Position numbers and translations under genes: made by a program | Part shown: positions 27,722-41,249 of the stretch, in pieces | Numbering within the stretch: the first letter of the stretch is position 1 | Layout of the letters: the number at the start of each line of letters is the position of its first letter | The notes under the pieces: model-generated | Database searches by the model: none | What the model saw: the letters and a program-made list of their open reading frames with translations, nothing else | Told to the model about the DNA's origin: nothing | NCBI RefSeq assembly: GCF_034087045.1 | Contig: NZ_CP139247.1 | Span: forward strand, 7,156,001-7,220,000 | Reading direction: 5' to 3' | DNA: 64,000 nt | DNA from: Chitinophaga sancti | GTDB taxonomy: Bacteria; Bacteroidota; Bacteroidia; Chitinophagales; Chitinophagaceae

Positions 27722-27752
27722 AAAAAAAACCGGTCCCTCTCAGGACCGGTTT
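27722..27752 (-). terminator. Strong terminator of the PorP/T9SS surface operon
   Basis: A 10-bp perfect stem, AAACCGGTCC (27727-27736) with GGACCGGTTT (27743-27752), 6-nt loop, followed on the minus strand by eight T. It lies 5 bp after the stop of the PorP/SprF gene and closes the five-gene operon. Confidence 0.9.
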
Positions 27753-27757
27753 CTCCA

Positions 27758-28675
27758 TTACTTAAATAGCTGTATCGTTGCGCCTATTTCAAAAGCCCCA
27801 TCTACATACGTTTTTATCCCTCCTGTATGCGTTGTATACATCGCCTGTTCCGACACCATTTGCCACGCTTTTACACCAATTCCCGCTGTCACACTTTTGG
27901 ATGAATGATACATCGCCATTATATTCGCCACATTATTCAGGAAACTGACATTCAAACCCGCATCCAGGATATTATCATATCCCTTTACACCTCTATACAC
28001 CAGTTTGGGTTCAATAGATGTGACCTCATCACTCCCTGGCAGGAACCTATAAGACACCGCCGTAAAAAAAAGACCACCACCGTCTACACCCAGGTTATTC
28101 CCTGTAAACAGGTTACGTACATTCGGTAATGCCGCCTGTACATTGAGATGCTTATCCGTATAACCCATTCCAAACTCCGCTTCAAAATAGTTATCCCTGC
28201 GATTAAATCCACTAATAGAAGGGTCGTTGGAATCCCCATTCACTGCCTTTACATCCAGGCGTTGTACATTCCACACAGCAGATAAACCAAAATGAAACTG
28301 TTGCTCCTCTAACCCTAATGGGATACGATAGGCATACGTCATCGCAACACGGGTACGATCTATCAATCCAGCTTTATCGCTCATCACCTGTGCACCTACC
28401 CCTACCCTGCTATTCACCTGCCAATCGCCGGAGGCAAAGGCTGTGACCGGGGCACCGGGCATACCGCCCAACTGACGGCGATAGGCAGCATTGAGACGCA
28501 TGCCTTGTTCCAGACCAGCCATGGCCGGGTTGGCCAGGTACTGGTTCTGGAAATATTGTGTGCCGGAGGGTTCCAGCAATGATTGAGAATTCCCTAAGGA
28601 TTGTGCCTTACTTTCATTGGCCATGCATAGACCTCCAAGTAAGAATAAGCATATATACTTTTGTAAGCTCATCAC
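27758..28675 (-). CDS. PorP/SprF family type IX secretion membrane protein
   Basis: A 305-residue outer-membrane protein with signal peptide (ANESKAQS). The early motif QYFQNQYLANPAMAGLEQGMRLNAAYRRQ is the hallmark of the PorP/SprF family; the rest is predicted barrel ending ...FEIGATIQLFK. Family members work with the type IX system and are typically encoded directly after a large secreted protein with a CHU_C-type C-terminus, as here (16-bp gap). SprF of Flavobacterium johnsoniae is needed to secrete the SprB adhesin, so this protein probably helps to export or anchor the 1,702-residue neighbour. Last gene of the operon. Confidence 0.92.
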   Translation of the reverse strand: MMSLQKYICLFLLGGLCMANESKAQSLGNSQSLLEPSGTQYFQNQYLANPAMAGLEQGMRLNAAYRRQLGGMPGAPVTAFASGDWQVNSRVGVGAQVMSDKAGLIDRTRVAMTYAYRIPLGLEEQQFHFGLSAVWNVQRLDVKAVNGDSNDPSISGFNRRDNYFEAEFGMGYTDKHLNVQAALPNVRNLFTGNNLGVDGGGLFFTAVSYRFLPGSDEVTSIEPKLVYRGVKGYDNILDAGLNVSFLNNVANIMAMYHSSKSVTAGIGVKAWQMVSEQAMYTTHTGGIKTYVDGAFEIGATIQLFK

Positions 28676-28691
28676 CTAATTGTTAATGGGA

Positions 28692-31600
28692 TCAATGCTG
28701 GTCCCTGATGATTGTAATAAAGCCTTTAGCAGGTGTGTTATAACCGTCTGCTTTCAGGATATAATAATAAGTGCCTTCTGCCAGGGGACTACCATTGTAA
28801 GTACCATCCCACTCATTGCTGTAATTCTTTTGATGATATACAACACGACCGGTACGGTCATAGATAATCAGGTCATTGTTTGGATAACGGCTTAGGTCAT
28901 TAATGATCCATTTATCATTCTTGCCATCGCCATTTGGTGTCAGCAGGTTGATCGCATCTATTTTAAATTCATTCACTACTGTGATCGTCACCGCTCCTTC
29001 ATTGATACAACCATTATTATCAGTTACGGTCACTGTGTATACAGTGTTCTCTACAGGCTTGATTTGCAGAGTTGCTGTTTGCTGACCGTCTACAACACCG
29101 CCGGCATTTGACCACTCATAACTGACCCCGCCAGTAGCAGTAAGATTCATGGCTGTTCCCCTGGAGATCACGGTATCCTGATCGGCTGTGATGATGACTG
29201 TTGGTAATGCATTTACCTTGATGGCAAATGTGCTGACCAGCGTATCTACACCACCGTAGGCAGTACCACCATTATCCTTCACTGTAACGGTTACATTGAC
29301 TGTACCGCTGATGTTTGGTTGCAGGTGGTATGTAATCAGACCAGTGGCATTTATGGCCAGAGAAGTAAAGAATGGTTGGTCAGCGCTTACGGTGTAGCTC
29401 AGCGTTTGCCCGTCTTCTACAGCAGAAGCGCCGGTTGTCTGAACAGCCTGTGCTATCGTGATATCACATACTTCCTGATCTGCAATAGCGTCCAGTGTGG
29501 GTGCCTGGTTTACCTGACCTACCTGAATGGTAAAGGATCTTTCAGTATATAAACCATTTGCCAGTGTAGCACGTATGCTGACATTGTAAGTGTTCCTCAC
29601 AGCATAATCCAGTATGGCGTTGGTCAACAGCTGGTTTCCTGAAATCGAGAAGAATGCATTGTCAGCGCCGCCTGCAACTAAGGTATAAGTATATACAGGA
29701 TCTGGTTCCGCTGTTACACCAGAGAGATGACCTACGAGTGTTCCCACAGGTGTGTTTTCAACAATGATCTGGTTATCAAGCTGGATGTCTGTAGGCGGTA
29801 ATGGTACGTATACCACATTTACATCTACTGTGGCAGCATTGCTCACATTCATACCATCACTCACTGCCAGGGTCAGGGTGACAGTTGTATTGTTGTTGGC
29901 ATTCAATGCAGCTTCATCTTTTACAGAGAGCACTCCGGTAGCAGCATTGATGGCAAAGGCACCGGAAAGATCATTAGTTATGGTCCAGTTTTGCAGCACA
30001 CCTGTAGCTTCAACAGCGTTGATCGCACCTACGATGGAGCCTGCGGCACTGTATTCGTCTATACTGAATGTCTGACCGGTGGTGATGACAGGAGCAGTAA
30101 TATCTGATAATACAGAGATTGTATTAGAAGCAGTATTACCATTTGAGCCTTTGTTGATGGCTACATCTGCTGGCAGGGTCACTGTTACATTACCATCTGC
30201 AGATGGAGTGATAGTTACAGTATAAGTGATGTTATCGCTTGTTTGCAGGTTGCTGGCAGTACCATTTATAACGTTAAAGTCAGTGATTATGAGATCTGTT
30301 ACCGCTTCGCTGAATGTAGCGGTAGCGGTATAAGGCGCATTGACTTTTGTAACAGTGGTAGATAATGTCACTGTTGGATGCACGGTATAAACATATATAC
30401 CTGTTGTACTACCTGCATTATAGAGCGTAAGGTCCGCATTGTTAGTAAACACATCCTGGATGCTGCCTGTGATAGCAGATAATGAAATACCATCCAGATC
30501 ATTTTCCCCATCCTGAACAGTATAGCTGAATGACAATGTGTTAGTACCTGTACCGCCAGTGTAAGCAGCATTTACAGTTGTACTGCCGATTGTAACCGGC
30601 AATACCGGCGTACCTGTTACATCCACCACGAAGTTAAACTGAACAGCAAAATCAAGTGTCTGACCTGCATGATAATAACCATTCGCCGGCACACTCACCT
30701 GTGTAATAACTGGTGGGATCGTATTTATTAACACACCAGTCGTAGAAGGCGCTGTGAAAGTCAGTACCGCATCATTATCAAAACCATCTTTAATACTACC
30801 ACCACTTAATACCCCTGTTGCAATACCATCCAGATCCTGATCGCCATCTTTCACCAAATAAGTGAAGGACAATATGGTAGTACCTGTACCAATAAGATAA
30901 TCAGCATATACTGTACTGTTACCGATAGTAAAAGCAATATGTGGAGTACCCCTTACATTCACAGCGTCACTAAATCTTACCTGGTAGAGCAATAAGCGAC
31001 CTGTAGTATAATATCCATCAGCTGGCGCAGTTACCTGCGTAATAACAGACGCTATCGTATTCACAAGTACATCGGCAGTAGAAGGTGTATTCAATGTAAG
31101 TACCGCATCATTACCAGCCGCATCTTTTATACTACCACCACTTAATGCACCTACTCCAATACCATCCAGATCCTGATCGCCATCTACAATTGTATAAGAG
31201 AATGTCAACTCATCAGTACCTGTACCACTAATATAATTAGCATATACCGTACTGCTACCCATTGTAATAGCAATATGCGGCGTACCTGTCACATTCACCA
31301 CTTCACTAAATGTCGCTGTGAAGTTTAAAATGCTACCGGATTTATAATATCCATCAGCTGGCGTAATGACATTGTTAACAATAGGGGCCGTAATATCAGC
31401 CAACAAGGTAAGCGAATTGGAAACTTTATTGCCATTACCGCCTAAATTCACCGCTGCATCTACTGGCAAATTAACTGTTACATTGCCATCGGCAGACGGG
31501 GTGATCGTAAAGGTGTAAGTAATATTATCAGTTGTGGACAACGCACTTGCTATACCATTCACTACTGTAAAATCAGTAGCTGTCAACCCTGTTACTGCTT

Positions 31601-33800
31601 CAATAAAAGTGGCTGTCACGGTAAATGCGCCATTCACCAAAGCAGGCGCCGTAGTGGTCAGTGTCACTGTAGGACGAATACCATTTACCTTTACTCCAGC
31701 TGCTACAGAACTGCTAAAAGAAATATTCAATACATTCCCCGCAGCATCAGTCAGCGAATTCCCATTCACCCGCAGCGGAGACATCGCTTTTATTCCGTCA
31801 TTATCCAGATCTCCTTCCTTTACGGTATAATTAAATGTCCATGTGTTAGTTCCTGCACCTGATGCATAAAAAGCCTTCACTGTAGTACTACCAATGGTCA
31901 GTTCCACATAAGGTACATCACCTGCATTGTCAGTATTCACCACTTCACTCATATTCAATGCCAGCGTGATTACCTGTCCGATATGATAAGTAGCATCTGC
32001 AGAGAATTGTACAGACTGAATGCCCGGTGCTGTCTGGTCTATCGTCCATGAATAAATAGTAATCCGCCCTACATTACCAGCCAGATCTGTTGCTCTCACA
32101 AATACTGAATGTGGCCCATCACTCAATCCAGCTATTGTATAAGGAGAGGTAGCCGGCAGGAAAGGACTTCCATCTATGCTTGCAGAAAATCCAGTTACAT
32201 CTTCATCCGCTGTAAATGTAAATGTCCCGGAATTACTATTTGTAGGGTTCGGAGGCCCTGTTACAATAGTAACCACCGGTGCTGTCTGATCCAGTTTAAT
32301 AGCAGCATTTGTACCACTTACATTACCGGCAGCATCTTTCACCTGCATGTACACTTTCTGATTACCATCACCTGTTGCCAGCCTATATGATTTTGTCGCT
32401 GCAAATGTCTCGTAAGCACTCCAATTACTACTATCTGCCGAGAACCGCATTTGCAGGCCAGCATTTGCATCTGTGCCTGTTTCTGACAATGTTACATTCA
32501 AAGAATTTGTAACAGCTGCACCCCCATTAATACCCAGTGAAATAACCGGCGCTGTCCTATCGATCGTATAAATATCTCCGCTGGTGAACGGTACATTCGA
32601 TATACCAGGAGTAATACCTGCACCATTTACATCCAACCGGATCGTACCATCACCGGTACCTGTATTTACAGCTACAAGATATGTTGTATTGCTTAGCTTC
32701 GTCACTGCTCCTATAGCAGCCCCTGTTATAGCCGTAGTTGTCAGGGTAAAAGCATTTGTTCCCGGTGTCGATACATCCGCGCTAAATGTCACCGTATAGG
32801 TAACTGTGGTTGCATTAGTTGGTGAAGCCCCATTTTTAGCAACACTTAATACTGTAGGCAGACTCAATCTGATCAACCGCCCATTTCCACTCGTAAAACC
32901 ATCTGCTGCATACACCACACCATTACTATTAACAGTCAGTCCTATAGGATAAGTAACCGCAGATATTGTCAAAGATGAATCCAGGAGAACAACAGTTCCT
33001 GCAGCATCATTATATTTTACTACAGCAGCAACGCCTGTTCTCACTGCTTCAATTGTATATAAATTATTTGTTGCATCTGTCGCCAACGCAGAAAAGTTTC
33101 TGCCTGTAGCCTTCGTAGATAAAGCATAGGAAGGATAGGTCAGTTTCATGATAGCACCACCCGAATTTGCCGCACTTTCTATGAAATCTGTAAAATAAAT
33201 ATTTCCCTGTGTGTCTGTTGTCAGACCCCAGGGATAAGAGGTACCAGCTGAAGGTACTGCAATACCATCGTAGATCACTGTTCCAATATATGATTCTGCG
33301 AAGGCAATATAACTCACAACATCAAATTTGGCCGAAGAGCTGTTATACTCTATGGTCAGCAGGTTGTTTGATCTATCTACTGCAATAGCAGAAAAATATC
33401 TTCCGGATTGTACCACCGTTGGTGTATACGAGCCCGCGGTCAGTTTAATAACCTGACCGTTGCCTGTCTCTAAAGAATTAAGCACAAACACATCGCCGAC
33501 GGAGTTAACAGCTATACCGCTGGGGTAATCACCCTTGATAGCTGTACCATGACTCAGACCTGAATAGATAACAGTACCAGTGCCAGTGCCGCTTGTAAAT
33601 TTTACTACATCATATAAATTTGTAGCGCTATTCAGCCTGGTGGTATAAATATTATTACTGGCATCTTTGGCAACAGCTGTGTAAGAACCGCCTGTTTCCA
33701 GCGTGGAAAGGATATACTGTGCCTTGCCCGACTGCCAGACGGTTACAGCAACAATGATCAGGAGTAATACCCTGATACATTGTGTAAATGTATGCTTCAT
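28692..33800 (-). CDS. Giant T9SS-secreted multidomain surface protein
   Basis: A 1,702-residue exported protein. Signal peptide (SGKAQYI), then an NHL/beta-propeller-like section to about residue 320 with repeats such as YPSGIAVNSVGDVFVLNS. Next come many bacterial Ig-like domains, including three adjacent ~115-residue units with the calcium-site-like motif DGDQDLDGI and an earlier diverged relative (EGDLDNDGI). Then cadherin-like sections, a PKD-like domain (SYEWSNAGG) and a C-terminal CHU_C sorting domain (LLTPNGDGKNDKWIINDL ... GTYYYILKADG). This is the layout of an adhesin or surface filament. Its partner PorP/SprF gene follows. The ligand is unknown. Confidence 0.9.
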   Translation of the reverse strand: MKHTFTQCIRVLLLIIVAVTVWQSGKAQYILSTLETGGSYTAVAKDASNNIYTTRLNSATNLYDVVKFTSGTGTGTVIYSGLSHGTAIKGDYPSGIAVNSVGDVFVLNSLETGNGQVIKLTAGSYTPTVVQSGRYFSAIAVDRSNNLLTIEYNSSSAKFDVVSYIAFAESYIGTVIYDGIAVPSAGTSYPWGLTTDTQGNIYFTDFIESAANSGGAIMKLTYPSYALSTKATGRNFSALATDATNNLYTIEAVRTGVAAVVKYNDAAGTVVLLDSSLTISAVTYPIGLTVNSNGVVYAADGFTSGNGRLIRLSLPTVLSVAKNGASPTNATTVTYTVTFSADVSTPGTNAFTLTTTAITGAAIGAVTKLSNTTYLVAVNTGTGDGTIRLDVNGAGITPGISNVPFTSGDIYTIDRTAPVISLGINGGAAVTNSLNVTLSETGTDANAGLQMRFSADSSNWSAYETFAATKSYRLATGDGNQKVYMQVKDAAGNVSGTNAAIKLDQTAPVVTIVTGPPNPTNSNSGTFTFTADEDVTGFSASIDGSPFLPATSPYTIAGLSDGPHSVFVRATDLAGNVGRITIYSWTIDQTAPGIQSVQFSADATYHIGQVITLALNMSEVVNTDNAGDVPYVELTIGSTTVKAFYASGAGTNTWTFNYTVKEGDLDNDGIKAMSPLRVNGNSLTDAAGNVLNISFSSSVAAGVKVNGIRPTVTLTTTAPALVNGAFTVTATFIEAVTGLTATDFTVVNGIASALSTTDNITYTFTITPSADGNVTVNLPVDAAVNLGGNGNKVSNSLTLLADITAPIVNNVITPADGYYKSGSILNFTATFSEVVNVTGTPHIAITMGSSTVYANYISGTGTDELTFSYTIVDGDQDLDGIGVGALSGGSIKDAAGNDAVLTLNTPSTADVLVNTIASVITQVTAPADGYYTTGRLLLYQVRFSDAVNVRGTPHIAFTIGNSTVYADYLIGTGTTILSFTYLVKDGDQDLDGIATGVLSGGSIKDGFDNDAVLTFTAPSTTGVLINTIPPVITQVSVPANGYYHAGQTLDFAVQFNFVVDVTGTPVLPVTIGSTTVNAAYTGGTGTNTLSFSYTVQDGENDLDGISLSAITGSIQDVFTNNADLTLYNAGSTTGIYVYTVHPTVTLSTTVTKVNAPYTATATFSEAVTDLIITDFNVINGTASNLQTSDNITYTVTITPSADGNVTVTLPADVAINKGSNGNTASNTISVLSDITAPVITTGQTFSIDEYSAAGSIVGAINAVEATGVLQNWTITNDLSGAFAINAATGVLSVKDEAALNANNNTTVTLTLAVSDGMNVSNAATVDVNVVYVPLPPTDIQLDNQIIVENTPVGTLVGHLSGVTAEPDPVYTYTLVAGGADNAFFSISGNQLLTNAILDYAVRNTYNVSIRATLANGLYTERSFTIQVGQVNQAPTLDAIADQEVCDITIAQAVQTTGASAVEDGQTLSYTVSADQPFFTSLAINATGLITYHLQPNISGTVNVTVTVKDNGGTAYGGVDTLVSTFAIKVNALPTVIITADQDTVISRGTAMNLTATGGVSYEWSNAGGVVDGQQTATLQIKPVENTVYTVTVTDNNGCINEGAVTITVVNEFKIDAINLLTPNGDGKNDKWIINDLSRYPNNDLIIYDRTGRVVYHQKNYSNEWDGTYNGSPLAEGTYYYILKADGYNTPAKGFITIIRDQH

Positions 33801-33809
33801 ATAAACCTG

Positions 33810-34970
33810 TTAAATGCAGAGAAAAGGGTTCTGCCAGCCAGAGATATTCTCTTGATGAATGATCTGTAAGCTGGCATCGTCATGACGAATTCCCTCGCCC
33901 TGGTCAAGAATAATTTTATTTATCTTTTGGGAAGTGGTATTCAGTTTTATAATGTTGGACACAGGCAATCCTAATCCGGTAGAAGGATGGAAACCTTTCT
34001 CTCCCCTGGGGCCACGGATCGTGTTCGTGCGTAGTTGTGCTTTTACTTTGTCCCAGTCGCCCTTCTGTGCATAGGGCAACAATTCTTTCCACACCAACCC
34101 TGCTTCATAGCCCATCAATCCATATATATTCGCAGGCTGTTGTGCTTTGCGCTCAAATGTCTTTACGAACAGTTTATTTTCTTTGCGTTCATCCTCTTTC
34201 AGCCAGGTGAGTGCACTGTAAATTTCCAGTTCCAGGTGCTTTACATCATCCAGGATATCTTCATAGGCCATCGTCTCCACTACTGTCAATGGAATAGTTT
34301 TACTGAAGGGGCTTTCTTTCCATGCAGCCAGAAAACGAGTGCCCATATTTCCACCGAAAATGGCATGCACATAAGGTGGAGGATTCCGCTCTATTTCCGC
34401 AAAAAAAACAGTGAGGTCCATGGCATTGGTATCTGCAGGACTACTGGATAATACAGTCACCCTCAGCTCCTGTGCACCTGCATAGAATGCTCCCTGTTGA
34501 AATGCATTTGCCAGATGATACCCGGCCTCATAAACTGGCATTACCAGATGTCCTGCATTGCCAAAACGCTTTTGTGCCCAGCGCCCCAGTGCATATTCTG
34601 ATTGCCATATCTGGTGAGATGCATAAAAAATATCCGGATTAATGGTAGCAGGATCAGGAATGAGCTCACCCATGTCAAAGAAGAAACCCAACTTACGCTG
34701 TGCTTCAACTACCGACATGAGTGAGGACAAAGATTTATAACTGATCAAACCTGACAAGACATCGGCCTGATTAAAAAACAATAATTTTTTAGCTGCCTCT
34801 GTGGTCGTAGCCGGGCTACCACTTCTTGTGAACTCCGGCATGATCTGTAAAATTCGCTGACGTGCAGGATCTAATCCCATTCCCAACATCCACCCTGTGA
34901 TCAGGTGTGCTGAATAAAACGGATATACACCGCTATAAGGCGTCAGAAAACCAATGTTCAATTGCTTCAT
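33810..34970 (-). CDS. Periplasmic-binding-fold (Leu/Ile/Val type) protein without signal peptide
   Basis: About 386 residues resembling type 1 substrate-binding proteins of branched-chain amino acid transporters: LNIGFLTPYSGVYPFYSAHLITGW, a central Rossmann-like section (YVHAIFGGNMGTRFLAAWKES) and a C-terminal GYEAGLVWKELLPYAQKGD. Unlike transport proteins it has no signal peptide or lipobox, and no permease or ATPase genes are nearby. The chosen ATG 34970 directly follows the collar-protein stop; an ATG at 35006 would overlap that gene by about 35 bp. It lies 9 bp before the giant surface protein gene. A role as a ligand sensor or structural part of a surface apparatus is inference. Confidence 0.78.
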   Translation of the reverse strand: MKQLNIGFLTPYSGVYPFYSAHLITGWMLGMGLDPARQRILQIMPEFTRSGSPATTTEAAKKLLFFNQADVLSGLISYKSLSSLMSVVEAQRKLGFFFDMGELIPDPATINPDIFYASHQIWQSEYALGRWAQKRFGNAGHLVMPVYEAGYHLANAFQQGAFYAGAQELRVTVLSSSPADTNAMDLTVFFAEIERNPPPYVHAIFGGNMGTRFLAAWKESPFSKTIPLTVVETMAYEDILDDVKHLELEIYSALTWLKEDERKENKLFVKTFERKAQQPANIYGLMGYEAGLVWKELLPYAQKGDWDKVKAQLRTNTIRGPRGEKGFHPSTGLGLPVSNIIKLNTTSQKINKIILDQGEGIRHDDASLQIIHQENISGWQNPFLCI

Positions 34971-34971
34971 A

Positions 34972-35565
34972 TTATGAACGGGAAGGGTACGTTCCTGCTG
35001 TTGCAATACAATAGTTAATGGCTAAGTATGGCTGTATAATAGAAACAGGCTGACTACCTCCCGTAACCATCACTGTAATCGTTCCTGAAACATCACCAGG
35101 TACCAGCGTAGCATCAGGGGAAGCAGTAGTATACCCATTCACATTAAATGTGTTTAACCCTGCACCTAAAGTTGGTAATTTAGCAGGCACCACTGTCGAA
35201 CCAGGTACATTGGTAGTAGCTACACCTGTACTTGCCTTGGGTGCCGCAGTGAGTGTATGAGTGGTGGTATGTGTATGCGCAGGCAGTTGATTCATGGTAA
35301 GGGCAGTTGATTCTACACCTCCCATTTGTCCAATATTATAATTAGAAAGTCCCTGTCCCTGTCCCATACCTATAGGTATTCTGCCACGCAAATCAGGAAC
35401 AGCAAAAGTACTCATGCCATCACCTCCATAATAGGTGCCGAGAAGGGAGAATAATGCCGTGTTCTGGGCAATTGAAATCAAAGCTCCATTACAAGCTAAC
35501 CAGCTGCTATAGGGGGTGAAATTAAATGCAAAAGCTACGATAAGCGCCATGTAAGGTTCATTCAT
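34972..35565 (-). CDS. Phage tail-collar domain protein (MdpB-like)
   Basis: A 197-residue protein with the phage tail collar fold: an N-terminal FNFTPYSSWLACNGALISIA, the FSLLGTYYGGDGMSTFAVPDLRGRIPIG signature and a His/Thr-rich middle (LPAHTHTTTHT), ending with SIIQPYLAINYCIATAGTYP. In bacteria these collar proteins (microcystin-dependent protein family) occur outside intact prophages. No other phage gene is present here. It is 27 bp downstream of the oxidoreductase-like gene and one base before the binding-fold gene. It lacks a signal peptide; how or whether it leaves the cell is unknown. Confidence 0.9.
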   Translation of the reverse strand: MNEPYMALIVAFAFNFTPYSSWLACNGALISIAQNTALFSLLGTYYGGDGMSTFAVPDLRGRIPIGMGQGQGLSNYNIGQMGGVESTALTMNQLPAHTHTTTHTLTAAPKASTGVATTNVPGSTVVPAKLPTLGAGLNTFNVNGYTTASPDATLVPGDVSGTITVMVTGGSQPVSIIQPYLAINYCIATAGTYPSRS

Positions 35566-35592
35566 TGCAAGAAAAAATTATTGAAGTGTATA

Positions 35593-36681
35593 TTAAATAA
35601 GATTACAATCAGGAAATGCAAATACCTTTCCTCCCTGCATGGCAGACTGACGACCCAATAAGCCAATCAGGCTATGAGTTGCCGCTGTATAAACAGGTAG
35701 TTGACTGCCCGGAGTTTTTAAGGTATTTATCAATTCATTCAATGCCATGGCAACCGGAGAGGCGGCATGTTGTTGCAGGTGCAGTTGGTCAGCTTCCCAT
35801 TGATTATCACCAACCCGCATAGCTTTTGCAAAATCGATCCAAAATACTTCCGTACCATGAATATGGGTGCCTGTTGAATATCCCTTTTCTGCTTGCAGAT
35901 ACACCCGCTGTCCCTGTGTAGTGGTCAGACAGATGAGTGGAATATTTCCATTCTTAATAATAGTCAATTGTTGACCCGTTTTAGGATCTACCTTATTGAC
36001 AATATAGTCCCGCTGCTGTGTAGTAGCCGCGATCGTTTCGAATCTGTTGTCTTTTCCTAACAAACTTTGTAAAAATAAAGCGGGATATAACGGATACGTA
36101 TCTACCTGGGGAGGCATTGCATCATAAGGCGCACCTGCATATATTTTTTCCAGTGTGCCGAAACTGATATTGGAAATTGCCTGCAGATCATGCCGGTAAC
36201 TTTGCTCATCCAGGGTAAAGTAATGACGACCTGTTTGCTGACTGGTCCTTATTATATCCCGATGCTCAGCTACCGTTTCGCCCATCACAGGACCACAGGC
36301 CACATGTTTACCCGCCAGCATCGCTGCTTTGGCAATCATATAGTGGGTATGTGCAGGGGTGGCAATAATCACCAGATCCAGCTCATCGCTGGCTAGTAAC
36401 TTTTGCCAGTCAGTGTAGACTTCCGGACGATCAGATCCTTTAAATAATCGAAGACTCTCCTGTAAGGAACCATTGTCCGAATCACATATTGAAATGATTG
36501 CCAGATCTTTTTGGGGAAGTGCTGTTGTAAGATATTCTCGTCCCCAGATGCCGGTTCCGATAAATCCTGTGCGCAAACCTTTACTAACATTTTTAGAGAA
36601 CAGAGACGACGGCATAACGGCCAGTGCAGGCAGTATATAGGCGACGTTTCTGAAAAATTCTCTCCTCTTTTGATTGTACAT
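35593..36681 (-). CDS. Gfo/Idh/MocA-like protein with altered catalytic motif
   Basis: A 362-residue protein with a Tat-like N-terminus (KRREFFRN then a hydrophobic stretch to residue 28) and a Rossmann domain (GFIGTGIWGREY, residues 39-50; IICATPAHTHY-like strand near 105-114). In the family the strand after this normally carries EKP, whose lysine is catalytic; here residues 129-134 read CGPVMG, so glutamate and lysine are missing. The second domain lacks the usual dinucleotide-dependent dehydrogenase residues that I would expect. It heads the five-gene operon. A non-catalytic or altered role is likely, with export through Tat. Confidence 0.82.
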   Translation of the reverse strand: MYNQKRREFFRNVAYILPALAVMPSSLFSKNVSKGLRTGFIGTGIWGREYLTTALPQKDLAIISICDSDNGSLQESLRLFKGSDRPEVYTDWQKLLASDELDLVIIATPAHTHYMIAKAAMLAGKHVACGPVMGETVAEHRDIIRTSQQTGRHYFTLDEQSYRHDLQAISNISFGTLEKIYAGAPYDAMPPQVDTYPLYPALFLQSLLGKDNRFETIAATTQQRDYIVNKVDPKTGQQLTIIKNGNIPLICLTTTQGQRVYLQAEKGYSTGTHIHGTEVFWIDFAKAMRVGDNQWEADQLHLQQHAASPVAMALNELINTLKTPGSQLPVYTAATHSLIGLLGRQSAMQGGKVFAFPDCNLI

Positions 36682-36831
36682 TTACAATTTATAGGGATAA
36701 TTATTCAAATCGTTTACTCAATGGCTTTTTATAGGAATGAGGCTAAAAATTGAATTAAATTTGCCAGGTATGGTAGCACAAATGTATATATAAATTATAC
36801 AAATATTAAAATATATTTTCCTGCAAGGCAA

Positions 36832-36865
36832 TAAAAAACCGGGACCTGCTCACGCAAATCCCGGT
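36832..36865 (-). terminator. Terminator of the sus/maltose operon
   Basis: ACCGGGA (36838-36844) pairs with TCCCGGT (36859-36865); on the minus strand six T follow. It lies 20 bp after the stop of the MFS transporter gene, the last gene of the locus. Confidence 0.85.
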
Positions 36866-36884
36866 CAAACTTTAGGTATATGTG

Positions 36885-38276
36885 TCAGGCTCTCTGTTCT
36901 TTCACATTCAACACTGCTACAGCAGCTATCATCATAAATACGCCCGCCATTACCAACGCATATATAGGCTGATCGTGAAAACAATACCTGACGATGAGAC
37001 CACCGAACAAGCCATTCACAATCTGTGGGAATGTGATAAAGAAATTAAAGATACCCATGTATACCCCCGTCTTATGCGGAGGTATCACACCTGATAGGAT
37101 AGCATAAGGCGTTGATAAAATGCTTCCCCATGCAAAACCAATACCGATCATAGGCAGTACCAGCAAGTCAGGAGATTGTATAAAAAAGATGGAGATCAGT
37201 GATACCCCTCCTGCTATCAAAGAGAAGGCATGCGCAACTCTCCTGTTTGTTTTACGCGCTATTGTAGGCAGGATCAGTGAATACACCGCCGATACCGCGC
37301 TATAAATGCTAAACAAGAAACCTACTTTATTGCCCGCATCAGCATAACTTGATGATGAGGTATCACCCGGCATTACCTTATAGATATGTTGCGCCACAGC
37401 CGGTGTGGTAAACACCCACATGGAGAACAAGGCAAACCAGGAACAAAACTGTACCAACCCTAACTGCCGCATAGCCGATGGCATGGCTGCAAAGTCTTTT
37501 GCGATTGTTCCCAATCCGGATGATACAGATGTTCCTTCAGAAGAAGGATTAAACTGTGCAAACTCCTCCGGACTATACTCCCTGCTCATAAATACAGACC
37601 ACAGTATCGTCGCTATTAACACCACCGCACCTATGTAAAAAGAATAAATCACATTGTTTGGAACCACACCCGGTGCTGCTACTTTCGATACACCCGCATA
37701 TTCCGCCAGCAAATAAGGCAATGAAGAACCCAATACGGCCCCCGCCCCTATCAGGAAGGTTTGTACTGAAAACCCCATACTCCGCTGCTCATCCGGCAAA
37801 TTATCAGATACAAGCGCACGAAAAGGCTCCATGGCAACATTGATACTTGCATCCATCAATGTGAGCATCCCTGCTCCTATCAGCATCGGTGGCAACAGGT
37901 AAGCCAGCATGGACGAATTCGGTAACAGGATCAACGCTAATGCCGTCAACAGCGCACCGACAAGAAAGTAAGGACGGCGGCGCCCAAACCTGTTCCACGT
38001 ACGATCACTATAATGCCCGATGATGGGCTGTACGATCATTCCGGTCACCGGTGCGGCTAACCAGAAAAGGGATAAATGTTCTACCTCTGCGCCATAGGTC
38101 TGTAGAATACGGGATGCATTTCCATTCTGTAATGCAAAACCAAACTGTATTCCGAAAAACCCCATGCTCATGTTCCAGATCCTTGCCGCAGATAAGCGTG
38201 GCTTTGTCATGCCTTTCATGGAATTCTTTTTTTCTGAAAACGATTTCATTCCACTTAGTGAATCCCCCGCTTTCAT
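36885..38276 (-). CDS. MFS sugar transporter (SLC45/GPH-like)
   Basis: A 463-residue inner-membrane transporter with about 12 TM segments. Early sequence RIWNMSMGFFGIQFGFALQNGNASRIL and the loop HYSDRTWNRFGRRRPYFLVG are typical of the MFS branch that includes maltose/sucrose symporters. In this locus it most likely brings maltose or short maltodextrins from the periplasm into the cytoplasm, where the GH65 phosphorylase acts. Gap to the GH65 gene is 7 bp, and a terminator follows. Confidence 0.9.
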   Translation of the reverse strand: MKAGDSLSGMKSFSEKKNSMKGMTKPRLSAARIWNMSMGFFGIQFGFALQNGNASRILQTYGAEVEHLSLFWLAAPVTGMIVQPIIGHYSDRTWNRFGRRRPYFLVGALLTALALILLPNSSMLAYLLPPMLIGAGMLTLMDASINVAMEPFRALVSDNLPDEQRSMGFSVQTFLIGAGAVLGSSLPYLLAEYAGVSKVAAPGVVPNNVIYSFYIGAVVLIATILWSVFMSREYSPEEFAQFNPSSEGTSVSSGLGTIAKDFAAMPSAMRQLGLVQFCSWFALFSMWVFTTPAVAQHIYKVMPGDTSSSSYADAGNKVGFLFSIYSAVSAVYSLILPTIARKTNRRVAHAFSLIAGGVSLISIFFIQSPDLLVLPMIGIGFAWGSILSTPYAILSGVIPPHKTGVYMGIFNFFITFPQIVNGLFGGLIVRYCFHDQPIYALVMAGVFMMIAAVAVLNVKEQRA

Positions 38277-38283
38277 AAATGTT

Positions 38284-40587
38284 TTATTTGACCAGGTCCC
38301 TGTTGTTCAATTGTACAACAGCGCCCGCCTTTACTACGAATGTATCTTCATATACCTTTACAGCTACATCGCCACCCTCTTTATTCTCCAGGACAACACG
38401 ATTTTTGTTGATCTCCACTTTCAGGATATTACTCCTGAAACGAATACTGAAAGCAAATGACTGCCAGCTATCCGGCAGAAAAGGTGTAAACTGTAACTGC
38501 CCATCACGTACACGCATACCTGCAAATCCTTCTACCACACTCATCCAGGTACCCGCCATCGAAGTGATATGCAAACCATCTTCTGTATCATTGTTATAAT
38601 CATCCAGGTCCAACCGGGAAGTTCGCAGGTAAAACTCATACGCCCGCTCTCCATCTCCCAGCTTCGCAGCCAGGATCGCGTGGATACAAGGTGATAATGA
38701 ACTTTCATGCACCGTACGTGGTTCGTAGAAATCAAAGTTTCTACGCAGCGTATCTATATCGAACCTGTCTTCCAGGAAATAAAATCCCTGCAATACATCT
38801 GCCTGCTTGATAAAACAACTTCTCAATATTCTATCCCAACTCCACTTCTGGTTCAATGGTCTTTGAGACGGATCCAGGTCTTTTACGAGTATCTGCTCTT
38901 TATCCAGGTAACCATCCTGCTGCAGGAAAATACCTCGCTCCGCATCTTCAGGATAGTACATATTATCTATGATATTTTGCCATTGCGCAACTTCAGTACC
39001 AGCATCAAATGAAGTTTTCTGGATAATAGCATCAGTTACCTGCGCCAGTGCCTCTATCGTATATTCCAAACACCACGTTGCCATGGTACTCGTATACCAG
39101 TTATTATTGATGTTATTCTCATACTCATTCGGCCCCGTTACGCCCAGCATCACATACTGCTTACGCGCCTCACTCCAATTCACTCTCTGTGCCCAGAAAC
39201 GTGAAATACCAATCAGTACTTCCAGACCATACTCCGCTAAATAAGCAACATCACCGGTATAACGGATATAGTTGAATATCGCAAATGCAATGGCCGCATT
39301 TCTATGAATCTCTTCGAAGGTGATCTCCCACTCATTATGACACTCCTCCCCATTCATCGTCACCATCGGGTACAATGCCGCTCCCTTGTTAAACCCTAAT
39401 TTACCCGCATTTTCTATCGCTTTATCCAACTGGTTATAGCGATAGACTAACAGGTTTCTCGCTACCTGCTGATCAGCTGTAGCCAGGTAAAAAGGTATAC
39501 AATATGCTTCTGTATCCCAATAAGTGGATCCACCATATTTTTCACCCGTAAAGCCTTTCGGACCTATATTCAAACGGGCGTCTTCACCTGTATAAGTCTG
39601 GTTCAGCTGGAAGATATTGAAACGGATACCCTGCTGTGCAGCAGCATCTCCTGTTATCACTATATCGCTCTCCTGCCATTTACCGGCCCAGGCGGCGGCC
39701 TGTTCTTCCTGCAATTTTGCAAACCCTTTGGCCGCTACTTTATCCACTACCTTCCTACATGCTGCCAGCAATTGTTCAGCAGCATGATTCTCTGAAGTCA
39801 GGTTCGCTGCATATTTAAATATCACAGTTTCCTGATTCCGTGTTGCAGCCACAGTCAACTTACCACCTACAAATTTATCTTTATTCACTGCTGTAACAGC
39901 TGACGCCAGTTTGCGCCCCTGCTGATATACATGGAATAACATGCCCGTACAAACTTTAAAACCTGTTTTCTTTGTACGTAATGTAAGATAAGCTGTATTG
40001 TCGTGTATGCTGCTTTCTACGAAATCCCAGAATCCCTCGTCATAATTCGCATCCTGGTTTCTCACAGCGCCATCTATAAAAGAGGTAATCTCAATCTCCC
40101 CATCAAAATTCAATGGCGTAATACTATAACGCAATGCACCTGCCTCATCATCTACAATACTACAAAAGCGGGTCGCTTTTACTGCTACCTGTTTACCTGA
40201 AGATAAGGTCGCTGTAAACGTACGTTCCAGGTAACCTTCTTTCATATTCAGCACACGACGAAAATCAATCACAGTAGCATGATGTAAATCCAGCGCCACC
40301 CCATCTACCCTGATCTCTAACCCGATCCAGTTGGCAGCATTCAGCACTTTGGCAAAATATTCAGGGTAACCATTTTTCCACCAGCCCACACGTGTCTTGT
40401 CAGGATAATAGATCCCTGCTACATAGCTACCCTGTAATGTTTCGCCTGAATACGTCTCTTCAAAATTGCCACGCTGACCCATACGGCCATTGCCCAAACT
40501 GAAGATACTTTCTGAGATTTTGTTGTAACCCGGTATAAATCCTTCTTCGATGATATTCCACTCATCGACCTTTATATACTGCTTCAT
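38284..40587 (-). CDS. Glycoside hydrolase family 65 maltose-type phosphorylase
   Basis: A 767-residue cytoplasmic enzyme, full length for the family. Family GH65 phosphorylases split alpha-glucobioses with phosphate, giving glucose and beta-glucose 1-phosphate. Visible are the N-terminal domain (FSLGNGRMGQRGNFEE), the catalytic barrel with the general acid glutamate in VTGPNEYENN, and the phosphate-site stretch TVHESSLSPCIHA. No signal peptide. The adjacent beta-phosphoglucomutase and the sus genes point to maltose as substrate; trehalose or kojibiose phosphorylase are alternatives that the sequence alone does not exclude. Confidence 0.92.
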   Translation of the reverse strand: MKQYIKVDEWNIIEEGFIPGYNKISESIFSLGNGRMGQRGNFEETYSGETLQGSYVAGIYYPDKTRVGWWKNGYPEYFAKVLNAANWIGLEIRVDGVALDLHHATVIDFRRVLNMKEGYLERTFTATLSSGKQVAVKATRFCSIVDDEAGALRYSITPLNFDGEIEITSFIDGAVRNQDANYDEGFWDFVESSIHDNTAYLTLRTKKTGFKVCTGMLFHVYQQGRKLASAVTAVNKDKFVGGKLTVAATRNQETVIFKYAANLTSENHAAEQLLAACRKVVDKVAAKGFAKLQEEQAAAWAGKWQESDIVITGDAAAQQGIRFNIFQLNQTYTGEDARLNIGPKGFTGEKYGGSTYWDTEAYCIPFYLATADQQVARNLLVYRYNQLDKAIENAGKLGFNKGAALYPMVTMNGEECHNEWEITFEEIHRNAAIAFAIFNYIRYTGDVAYLAEYGLEVLIGISRFWAQRVNWSEARKQYVMLGVTGPNEYENNINNNWYTSTMATWCLEYTIEALAQVTDAIIQKTSFDAGTEVAQWQNIIDNMYYPEDAERGIFLQQDGYLDKEQILVKDLDPSQRPLNQKWSWDRILRSCFIKQADVLQGFYFLEDRFDIDTLRRNFDFYEPRTVHESSLSPCIHAILAAKLGDGERAYEFYLRTSRLDLDDYNNDTEDGLHITSMAGTWMSVVEGFAGMRVRDGQLQFTPFLPDSWQSFAFSIRFRSNILKVEINKNRVVLENKEGGDVAVKVYEDTFVVKAGAVVQLNNRDLVK

Positions 40588-40589
40588 AA

Positions 40590-41249
40590 TTATAAATCTT
40601 TTAAACGCTGAAGACTCATGTCTCCAAGACCACTGACAATCATATCTGCGTTACCAAGCACCTCTACCGAACCAATACCCACTACTTTCATCCCACCTGC
40701 CTTCGCTGCCTGTACACCCGCTACTGCATCTTCAAATACCACACAGTAAGCAGGATCTGCATGCAAACTATTCGCCCCTTTCAGGAACACTTCAGGATCT
40801 GGTTTGGAAGCTGTGACTGAGTTACCATCTACCACTACATCAAACAATGCAGTCAACCCCACTCTTTCCAGGATAGTACCCGCATTTTTACTCGCTGAAC
40901 CCAAAGCCGTTTTTACACCCGCCTTTTGCAGACTTTCCAAAAACGCTCTTGCACCGGGCAATACCTCATCTGGTTGCATATGACGGATCATATCCACATA
41001 CCATTCATTCTTGCGGGCCGCCTGTGCAGCTTGTTCTTCAGCGGATAGCTGCACACCTCCTATTTCCAGTATGATCTCGAGTGAGCGGGTACGACTCAGG
41101 CCTTTGAGTAATTCATTTTGTTCCTCCGTGAAGTCGAACCCCATCTCATTTGCCAGCCTTTTCCAGGCTTTGTAATGGTATTTGGCGGTATCTACTATCA
41201 CGCCATCAAGGTCGAAAATACATGCGTCTATTCTGTCCATATCATCCAT
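40590..41249 (-). CDS. pgmB: Beta-phosphoglucomutase (HAD family)
   Basis: A 219-residue HAD-superfamily enzyme turning beta-glucose 1-phosphate into glucose 6-phosphate. Motifs: FDLDGVIVDTAKYHYKAW (nucleophile and acid/base aspartates, and the cap hinge), GLSRTRSLE of the cap, ALGSASKNA (motif II), ASKPDPEVFL (motif III lysine) and VFEDAVAGV (motif IV). Two bp separate it from the GH65 gene, whose product it consumes. Start could be ATG 41249 or, three codons later, 41240. Confidence 0.93.
   Translation of the reverse strand: MDDMDRIDACIFDLDGVIVDTAKYHYKAWKRLANEMGFDFTEEQNELLKGLSRTRSLEIILEIGGVQLSAEEQAAQAARKNEWYVDMIRHMQPDEVLPGARAFLESLQKAGVKTALGSASKNAGTILERVGLTALFDVVVDGNSVTASKPDPEVFLKGANSLHADPAYCVVFEDAVAGVQAAKAGGMKVVGIGSVEVLGNADMIVSGLGDMSLQRLKDL

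Follow-up and report, generated by a model that had tools for sequence, protein, structure and literature searches.

The locus examined here raises the question of what a phage-type tail collar gene is doing in an operon with genes for a type 1 periplasmic-binding-fold protein (PBP) and for a giant protein exported by the type IX secretion system (T9SS). It lies at positions 27758-36681 of the window, the 64,000-nucleotide stretch of the Chitinophaga sancti genome (8.32 Mb, single contig) that was analyzed; every feature with window coordinates below is on the minus strand. An initial annotation had described five tightly packed genes there, and these were found at those positions in the order Gfo/Idh/MocA-like gene (Gfo), collar, PBP, giant and PorP/SprF, separated by gaps of 27, 1, 9 and 16 bp. 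The gaps assume that the PBP starts at the ATG at 34970; its longest open reading frame (ORF) starts at a TTG at 35006, and that start would overlap the collar gene. The annotation had joined all five genes in one unit, and this was not borne out: the core is collar plus PBP, with Gfo within three genes of it in 9 of 76 loci and PorP within five genes of 16 of 66 PBP genes. Judging from conservation among the sequences, collar and PBP are very likely one conserved unit, often beside a giant T9SS protein. The annotation had been unable to match the set to a described system, and our search of the literature, most subscription papers lying outside it, likewise gave no account of collar, PBP and giant together. 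The constituent families are known, and what appears new relative to the systems described there is their combination with a PBP that carries a conserved C-terminal tail.

Conservation of the collar-PBP pair and its neighbors

The initial annotation had made its reading depend on finding collar and binding-fold genes together with PorP adhesins in other genomes, and the pair does recur in many Bacteroidota genomes, where a giant T9SS protein often accompanies it. At an E value of 1e-20, PBP matches were found in 21 of 294 genomes of the family, and a 35-sequence PBP profile found matches in 22 of 395 genomes of the phylum (the C. sancti genome is counted in both). Among named genomes, 41 candidate stretches yielded 19 confirmed PBP loci, in Chitinophaga, [Flexibacter], Niastella, Mucilaginibacter, Algoriphagus and Aquimarina. 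Among named relatives, the window's PBP is closest to those of [Flexibacter] sp. ATCC 35208, at 96% identity, and Chitinophaga silvisoli, at 85%. The five genes stand in the same order in both genomes.

In the PBP-based searches, a same-strand collar gene immediately adjoined the PBP in 51 of 61 cases and lay no more than two genes away in 59 of 61. The two remaining loci, L062 and L063, have collars five genes away. Five loci found through their collars (L167, L169, L170, L171 and L174) were kept out of this count; with these added, the figures become 56 of 66 and 64 of 66. Four PBP loci were not widened: L014, L022 and L024, among the 25 PBP places of the family search, and L115, among the 22 of the phylum search. 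Their short flanks contain a collar at L014, L022 and L115 and none at L024. Viewed from the collars, 17 of 60 family genomes carry 23 collar loci, and a PBP lies beside 10 of these; two of the 23, both without PBP, have a formyltransferase. One locus in these genomes, G051:C16, was not fetched, and the collar search missed the collar of L168.

The giant protein is a frequent partner of the PBP, not a constant one, since 39 of the 66 PBP genes have a same-strand ORF of at least 900 aa no more than three genes away. ORFs of this size made up 38 of the 227 within three genes of a PBP compared to 13 of the 397 further out (Fisher p 9e-9, an optimistic value because the loci are related). The window's giant gene (28692-33800) encodes 1702 aa with NHL, Big_12 and cadherin domains and a CHU_C/T9SS type B sorting domain (3.5e-26). 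PorP/SprF, the outer-membrane partner of type B T9SS cargo, is encoded beside it at 27758-28675 (PF11751 7e-43, TIGR03519 1.2e-40). Both proteins had been recognized in the initial annotation as an adhesin and PorP of a known pairing, and the C. sancti genome indeed has 36 CHU_C matches above the cut-off and 16 PorP. The locus shares with T9SS type B adhesin/PorP pairs the C-terminal sorting domain on the giant and the adjoining PorP/SprF, and it differs in that many related loci have a type A tail on the giant or lack PorP. To our knowledge, collar and PBP genes are no part of this pairing.

Forty-four large ORFs were found near PBPs, of which 35 had a complete 3' end and 31 were scanned, with the window used in place of L026 and with L035, L049, L122 and L135 left out (masked or not adjacent). 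CHU_C was found in 18 of the 31 C-termini and Por_Secre_tail in 22, and the two sets overlap. The giants are otherwise very diverse, with 1702 aa in the window, 2981 aa in C. silvisoli and 14 SprB repeats in L134, which is of the same class. Several giants, for example those of L129, L131, L134 and L036, were seen to have M-K-x-[FI]-[YF/T]-[ST] at the start of their first 15 residues, ahead of a hydrophobic signal core, and this recalls the extended signal peptides of autotransporters. The sorting domains are a good basis for predicting surface display of the giant protein, and GldM (6.3e-115), the sole T9SS core gene searched, was found in the C. sancti genome.

Gfo (35593-36681; 362 aa; GFO_IDH_MocA 7.8e-16) had been described as exported by twin-arginine translocation (Tat) and as lacking EKP, the motif expected of Gfo/Idh/MocA oxidoreductases. 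This agrees with its Tat-like start, KRREFFRNVAYIL, and with CGPVM at the EKP site. CG(P/A) occupies that site in seven of nine Gfo relatives; the search pattern did not locate the site in the other two. All nine loci with Gfo near the core belong to the window's family or to named Chitinophaga, Niastella and [Flexibacter] records. Gfo was rejected as a core gene because it occurs at so few loci, and it is regarded as an accessory to the core. ORFs with a Tat signal made up 20 of 382 within three genes of the core compared to 8 of 450 further out (p 0.0066), in a home-made test on related loci where such a neighbor occurs in only 16 of 76 loci and at least one match, the 410-aa product of L030, resembles a membrane protein. 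TatC was found in the C. sancti genome.

The C-terminal tail of the PBP

The PBP gene (33810-34970) encodes 386 aa from its ATG and matches Peripla_BP_6 (5e-21). The annotation had read it as a type 1 periplasmic-binding fold without a signal peptide. AlphaFold2 modeled that fold with confidence (predicted local distance difference test, pLDDT, 89.5; predicted template modeling score, pTM, 0.90), and hydropathy showed no signal segment. Across the loci, the cut-off of the hydropathy test was reached by 2 of 67 PBP ORFs and 11 of 103 collars compared to 13 of 16 PorP. Two adjoining arginines in the first 20 residues were found in none of 120 PBP relatives among the matches listed. By Foldseek and profile comparison, the nearest solved structures were 4zpj and solute-binding proteins, several of them with aromatic acids (4evq, 4ey3), and AmiC (1pea, 1qo0) ranked lower. 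The PBP shares the type 1 binding fold with these AmiC/HAAT proteins and differs from them in its C-terminal tail, over which none of the 19 matched structure chains aligned; their best aligned stretches stop at or before profile position 363 of 382. P0133, an ordinary relative, lacks the tail and carries a Tat-like signal. The role of an ABC importer (HAAT) binding protein was considered and rejected, because the operon has no permease or ATPase genes and the PBP has no signal.

The tail reads SGWQNPFLCI in the window (codons at 33813-33842) and follows the consensus (S/T)GW-x-NP(Y/F)LC(I/V). It is the best-conserved part of the PBP, lies C-terminal to the region matched by solved relatives, and is disordered in the model, where residues 377-380 and 382-384 fall below a pLDDT of 50. 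Across 35 sequences, nine columns are invariant, W379 and N381 included; across a wider set of 27, the invariant columns number four, and both residues are still among them. Of 67 PBP ORFs, 66 have W-x-N inside their final 14 residues, and the one that does not is the front half of a split gene; in Aquimarina algiphila, a PBP split over two ORFs was observed at L044:10001-11178. A C-terminal W-x-N-[PSTN]-[YFL]-x-C-x was present in 120 of 120 relatives among the matches listed (177 found).

A general sorting tag, carried by other proteins as well, was also considered. The DNA pattern for W-x-N-P-[YF]-L-C-[IV]-stop occurred at 19 places in 15 of 294 genomes, and all were PBP genes: 18 were those of the family search, and the nineteenth, in G015, belongs to a divergent PBP with three collars next to it. 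The reversed pattern, used as a control, occurred at one place in the 294 genomes. The strict pattern misses variant tails at 7 of the 25 PBP places of the family search. Since it matched PBP genes alone, the tail is specific to the PBP family, and a general tag was ruled out in these genomes. The same tail was not found on formyltransferases or collars among those listed. NPYLC of the tail was seen to resemble a QPYL strand near the C-terminus of the collar.

Collars, other phyla and the limits of the operon

The collar gene (34972-35565) encodes a T4 gp12-type tail fiber protein of 197 aa that has no signal peptide. Its phage-type identity, as given in the initial annotation, was supported by PF07484 (Collar, 2.4e-23) and by profile matches to T4 gp12 (1ocy, 1.2e-7) and a long tail fiber (8kec, 1.4e-12). 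The residues P94, H96 and H98 of its P-x-H-x-H motif (35272-35286) are invariant in 33 of 33 aligned collars, the motif is present in 99 of 103 collar ORFs, and the H-x-H of the window collar aligned to the 8kec long tail fiber. Histidines of this type in T4 tail fibers bind metal at the trimer axis. The likeness to the T4 gp12 short tail fiber and its relatives is one of collar domain homology; the window collar differs in being a stand-alone gene product without surrounding phage genes. In the collar model, the N-terminal domain alone is confident, which would fit an intertwined trimer and is no proof of one.

Three other collar loci were found in the C. sancti genome, each without PBP. One region (the 6479022 region, L091:9008-16594) holds a collar triplet, then a formyltransferase-like gene, then a lasso-peptide-like set whose genes were read from sequence as asparagine synthetase-like, B2-like, HprK-like, PqqD-like and nucleotidyltransferase-like. 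Lasso-type genes, there annotated as such, also adjoin the collars of L187 (Azospirillum) and L180 (Deinococcus QL22). C. sancti also has a 552-aa protein that contains three collar domains, encoded at G000:C1:5566653-5567978 (L093), and a large CHU_C/PorP pair lies a few kilobases away from it. Elsewhere in the phylum, two gene families were observed upstream of collars. A conserved gene of 145-168 aa occurs in six Aquimarina loci (L039-L044), with the L040 copy matching a retropepsin-like aspartyl protease, and a family of ~125 aa lies directly upstream in five loci (L116-L120), with no Pfam match for the one member searched.

Seventeen plasmid collar regions, hand-picked for variety, were examined as well (10 from Pseudomonadota, including the phage-like one of Rhizobium bangladeshense p7, 4 from Deinococcota, 2 from Bacteroidota and 1 from Bacillota). 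A non-phage protein of at least 899 aa lies within three genes of the collars in 15 of the 17; by annotation, 11 of these giants are Ig-like, VcbS, cellulose-binding or similar, and four are hypothetical. A GNAT or other N-acetyltransferase was found in 11 regions, a formyltransferase in one, and a PBP in three, all from Deinococcus. These plasmid clusters, from Alphaproteobacteria, Comamonas, Deinococcus and Paenibacillus, share with the window the collars beside a giant. They differ in that an acetyltransferase replaces the formyltransferase and that there are mostly three collars instead of one. The region on an Azospirillum oryzae plasmid has lasso-type genes and no giant.

Three of the four Deinococcus plasmid regions have a giant, three collars and a PBP ending in SGW-x-x-x-Y-L. 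All three PBPs have a Tat-like start, and they score 195, 58 and 57 bits with the family profile. The ordinary protein 4evq scores 149 bits; family membership of the two lower-scoring Deinococcus PBPs is therefore based on their tail and position and not on the score. Among 13 proteins found with one Deinococcus PBP, 12 have a Tat-like start (by eye) and end in (S/T)GW-x-x-x-(Y/F)-L, and the thirteenth is an ordinary relative without such a tail. The one Deinococcus collar examined has no signal. The Tat-like signals suggest that at least these PBPs are exported from the cytoplasm. Together with the Tat-signal neighbors of some Bacteroidota loci (Gfo, a metallophosphatase-like family and small proteins), they give a hint of folded export.

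Collar genes also appear in several published datasets. In Acaryochloris, AM1_3684 and AM1_3686-3690 (three collars, an acetyltransferase and conserved hypotheticals) are tabulated with the genes that changed most (PMC11633204), and their neighboring locus tags suggest that they form one cluster. Three collar genes of Caulobacter are listed as phage genes (PMC4221894), and collar paralogs of Solibacter have been reported with a sign of positive selection (PMC3174227).

The initial annotation had the operon closed by a strong terminator, and a terminator-like site with a 15-pair stem and a T-run is present at its end (27723-27756). A second site (36837-36866), 3' of the upstream MFS gene, divides that gene from the operon. 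However, 23 such sites were found in the 17-kb scanned stretch compared to 13.2 expected and, thus, any single site is no proof of a terminator. A candidate Bacteroidota -7 element, TACATTTG, was read from the sequence at 36779-36786 with TAnnTTTG as the consensus, and no well-spaced -33 element accompanies it. Further upstream, at 36885-41249, lie genes for an MFS sugar transporter (GPH sucrose-like), a 767-aa ORF that we take to be maltose-phosphorylase-like, and a HAD-type 219-aa ORF that is presumably beta-phosphoglucomutase-like. These genes are probably a disaccharide-use cluster, distinct from the five-gene operon.

Possible roles of the unit

The reading that we favor, at a little under an even chance, is that the unit is a cell-surface adhesion module with a collar tip on a giant stalk. 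The collar protein would form a trimeric receptor-binding tip, the giant protein would extend outward from the cell as the stalk, and PorP would seat the giant in the outer membrane. The PBP would be a dedicated partner that grips the collar, or a third party, via its W-x-N-P-Y-L-C tail and could act as an assembly or export adaptor, a chaperone or a ligand-responsive latch. Service to the collar via the tail is the most likely role for the PBP. Gfo would be a local accessory. In favor of the module are the adjacency of collar and PBP, the enrichment of giants beside the PBP and their sorting domains, the conserved PBP tail, the Deinococcus and other plasmid regions, the detection of a Ruegeria pomeroyi collar protein in the exoproteome, the Acaryochloris gene tables, and the presence of GldM and TatC in the C. 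sancti genome. The surface apparatus with a ligand sensor that the initial annotation had suggested is still a hypothesis, in which the sensor role is conjectural.

Several findings weigh against this reading. Collar and PBP lack a signal peptide in most Bacteroidota members, and this leaves their route to the surface unexplained. The collar monomer model is weak beyond its N-terminal domain (pLDDT 74, pTM 0.46). In addition, a same-strand ORF of at least 900 aa is missing from the three nearest genes on either side in 27 of the 66 PBP loci (for example, L048, L053 and L058-L064), in some cases because the contig ends. Finally, in a phage-like region of Rhizobium bangladeshense p7, the collar stands among tail genes and adjoins a 1080-aa phage tail protein, so the size of a neighbor alone proves nothing.

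A wider version of the adhesion reading, to which we give little credence, is a multi-phylum surface system with export through Tat. The collars would fold in the cytoplasm, be bound by the PBP tail and be exported folded, using the PBP's own signal in Deinococcus and, in Bacteroidota, hitchhiking on a neighboring Tat protein such as Gfo or the metallophosphatase-like protein. They would then be mounted on the giant surface protein (Ig-like or T9SS), where they would serve as an adhesive tip under ligand control.

Another possible explanation, with a small chance of being right, is that the PBP is a cytoplasmic, AmiC-like ligand sensor that binds a small molecule, perhaps an aromatic acid, and switches expression of collar and adhesin. 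AmiC functions without a signal peptide, and the window's PBP shares both this lack and the fold. AmiC is among its fold and sequence matches, and its best relatives by sequence, 4evq and 4ey3, were solved with 4-hydroxybenzoate. Moreover, histidine-kinase-like and response-regulator-like genes were read from the sequence in 7 of 62 loci (L091, L093, L124, L125, L127, L130 and L133), and two plasmid regions (L179, L184) have an annotated kinase and regulator close to their collars. The pairs near the seven loci speak for regulation by signals, though not via the PBP. However, the window operon contains no antiterminator or regulator gene, and the constant neighbor of the PBP is a collar. The Deinococcus PBPs have Tat-like signals, and the matched part of the AmiC-like structures excludes the tail.

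Comparably unlikely is that the collars are free extracellular proteins, as RhiB of Rhizobium might be, with the giant as merely a frequent neighbor and the PBP aiding folding or release. A collar protein of Ruegeria pomeroyi was detected in the exoproteome (PMC4949626). RhiB has a collar domain and belongs to a non-phage operon, rhiABCD, tied to interaction with the plant host (PMC13133039). Compared by description, the rhi operon differs from the window's in that the available part of that source mentions no PBP or giant T9SS protein and gives no Pfam domain for RhiA and RhiC. The 27 PBP genes without a nearby giant would suit free collars, but giants are enriched beside the PBP and are present in 15 of the 17 plasmid collar regions.

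It is quite improbable that the locus serves peptide modification, with the PBP tail or the collars as substrates of neighboring formyltransferases, acetyltransferases, hydroxylases and sulfotransferases. Such genes are common: 27 of 76 loci have a formyltransferase no more than three genes from the core (one of them has Gfo as well), Asp/Asn hydroxylase, sulfotransferase, 2-oxoglutarate oxygenase and carbamoyltransferase families occur at distant loci, and the acetyltransferases of 11 plasmid regions and the lasso-type genes beside the collars of L180 and L187 point the same way. The window operon, however, has no such enzymes and keeps the tail nonetheless. The arrangement in L059, L060, L061, L064 and L155 is itself recurrent: the PBP gene is preceded by those for an Asp/Asn hydroxylase and a sulfotransferase and followed by one for a formyltransferase (by Pfam for L060, by clustering or by eye for the others); L060, L064 and L155 also have an adenylylsulfate-kinase-like gene (by eye).

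A phage remnant or tailocin fragment present by chance is highly improbable even though the collar domain is a phage tail domain, given that no other tail gene stands in the operon or among the ten annotated recurring neighbors, that no PBP match was found in 50,697 phage records at E 1e-5, and that the genuine phage collar locus of R. bangladeshense p7 looks different. Tube, sheath and baseplate genes were likewise absent from the operon and from the ten annotated neighbors, the rest of the genome having been searched for collars only. For anti-phage defense, 8 proteins gave no PADLOC match at E 0.01.

If the adhesion reading is correct, the ten-residue tail of the PBP would be a direct experimental handle. 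The reading would also give a role to proteins now labelled 'ABC transporter substrate-binding protein' and would help account for stand-alone 'tail collar' or 'tail fiber' genes on bacterial chromosomes and plasmids. The module would be an adhesion system distinct from the phage tail, the tailocin, the type VI secretion system and known adhesin operons, and a phage tail-fiber domain would have been recruited to cell-surface adhesion in several phyla.

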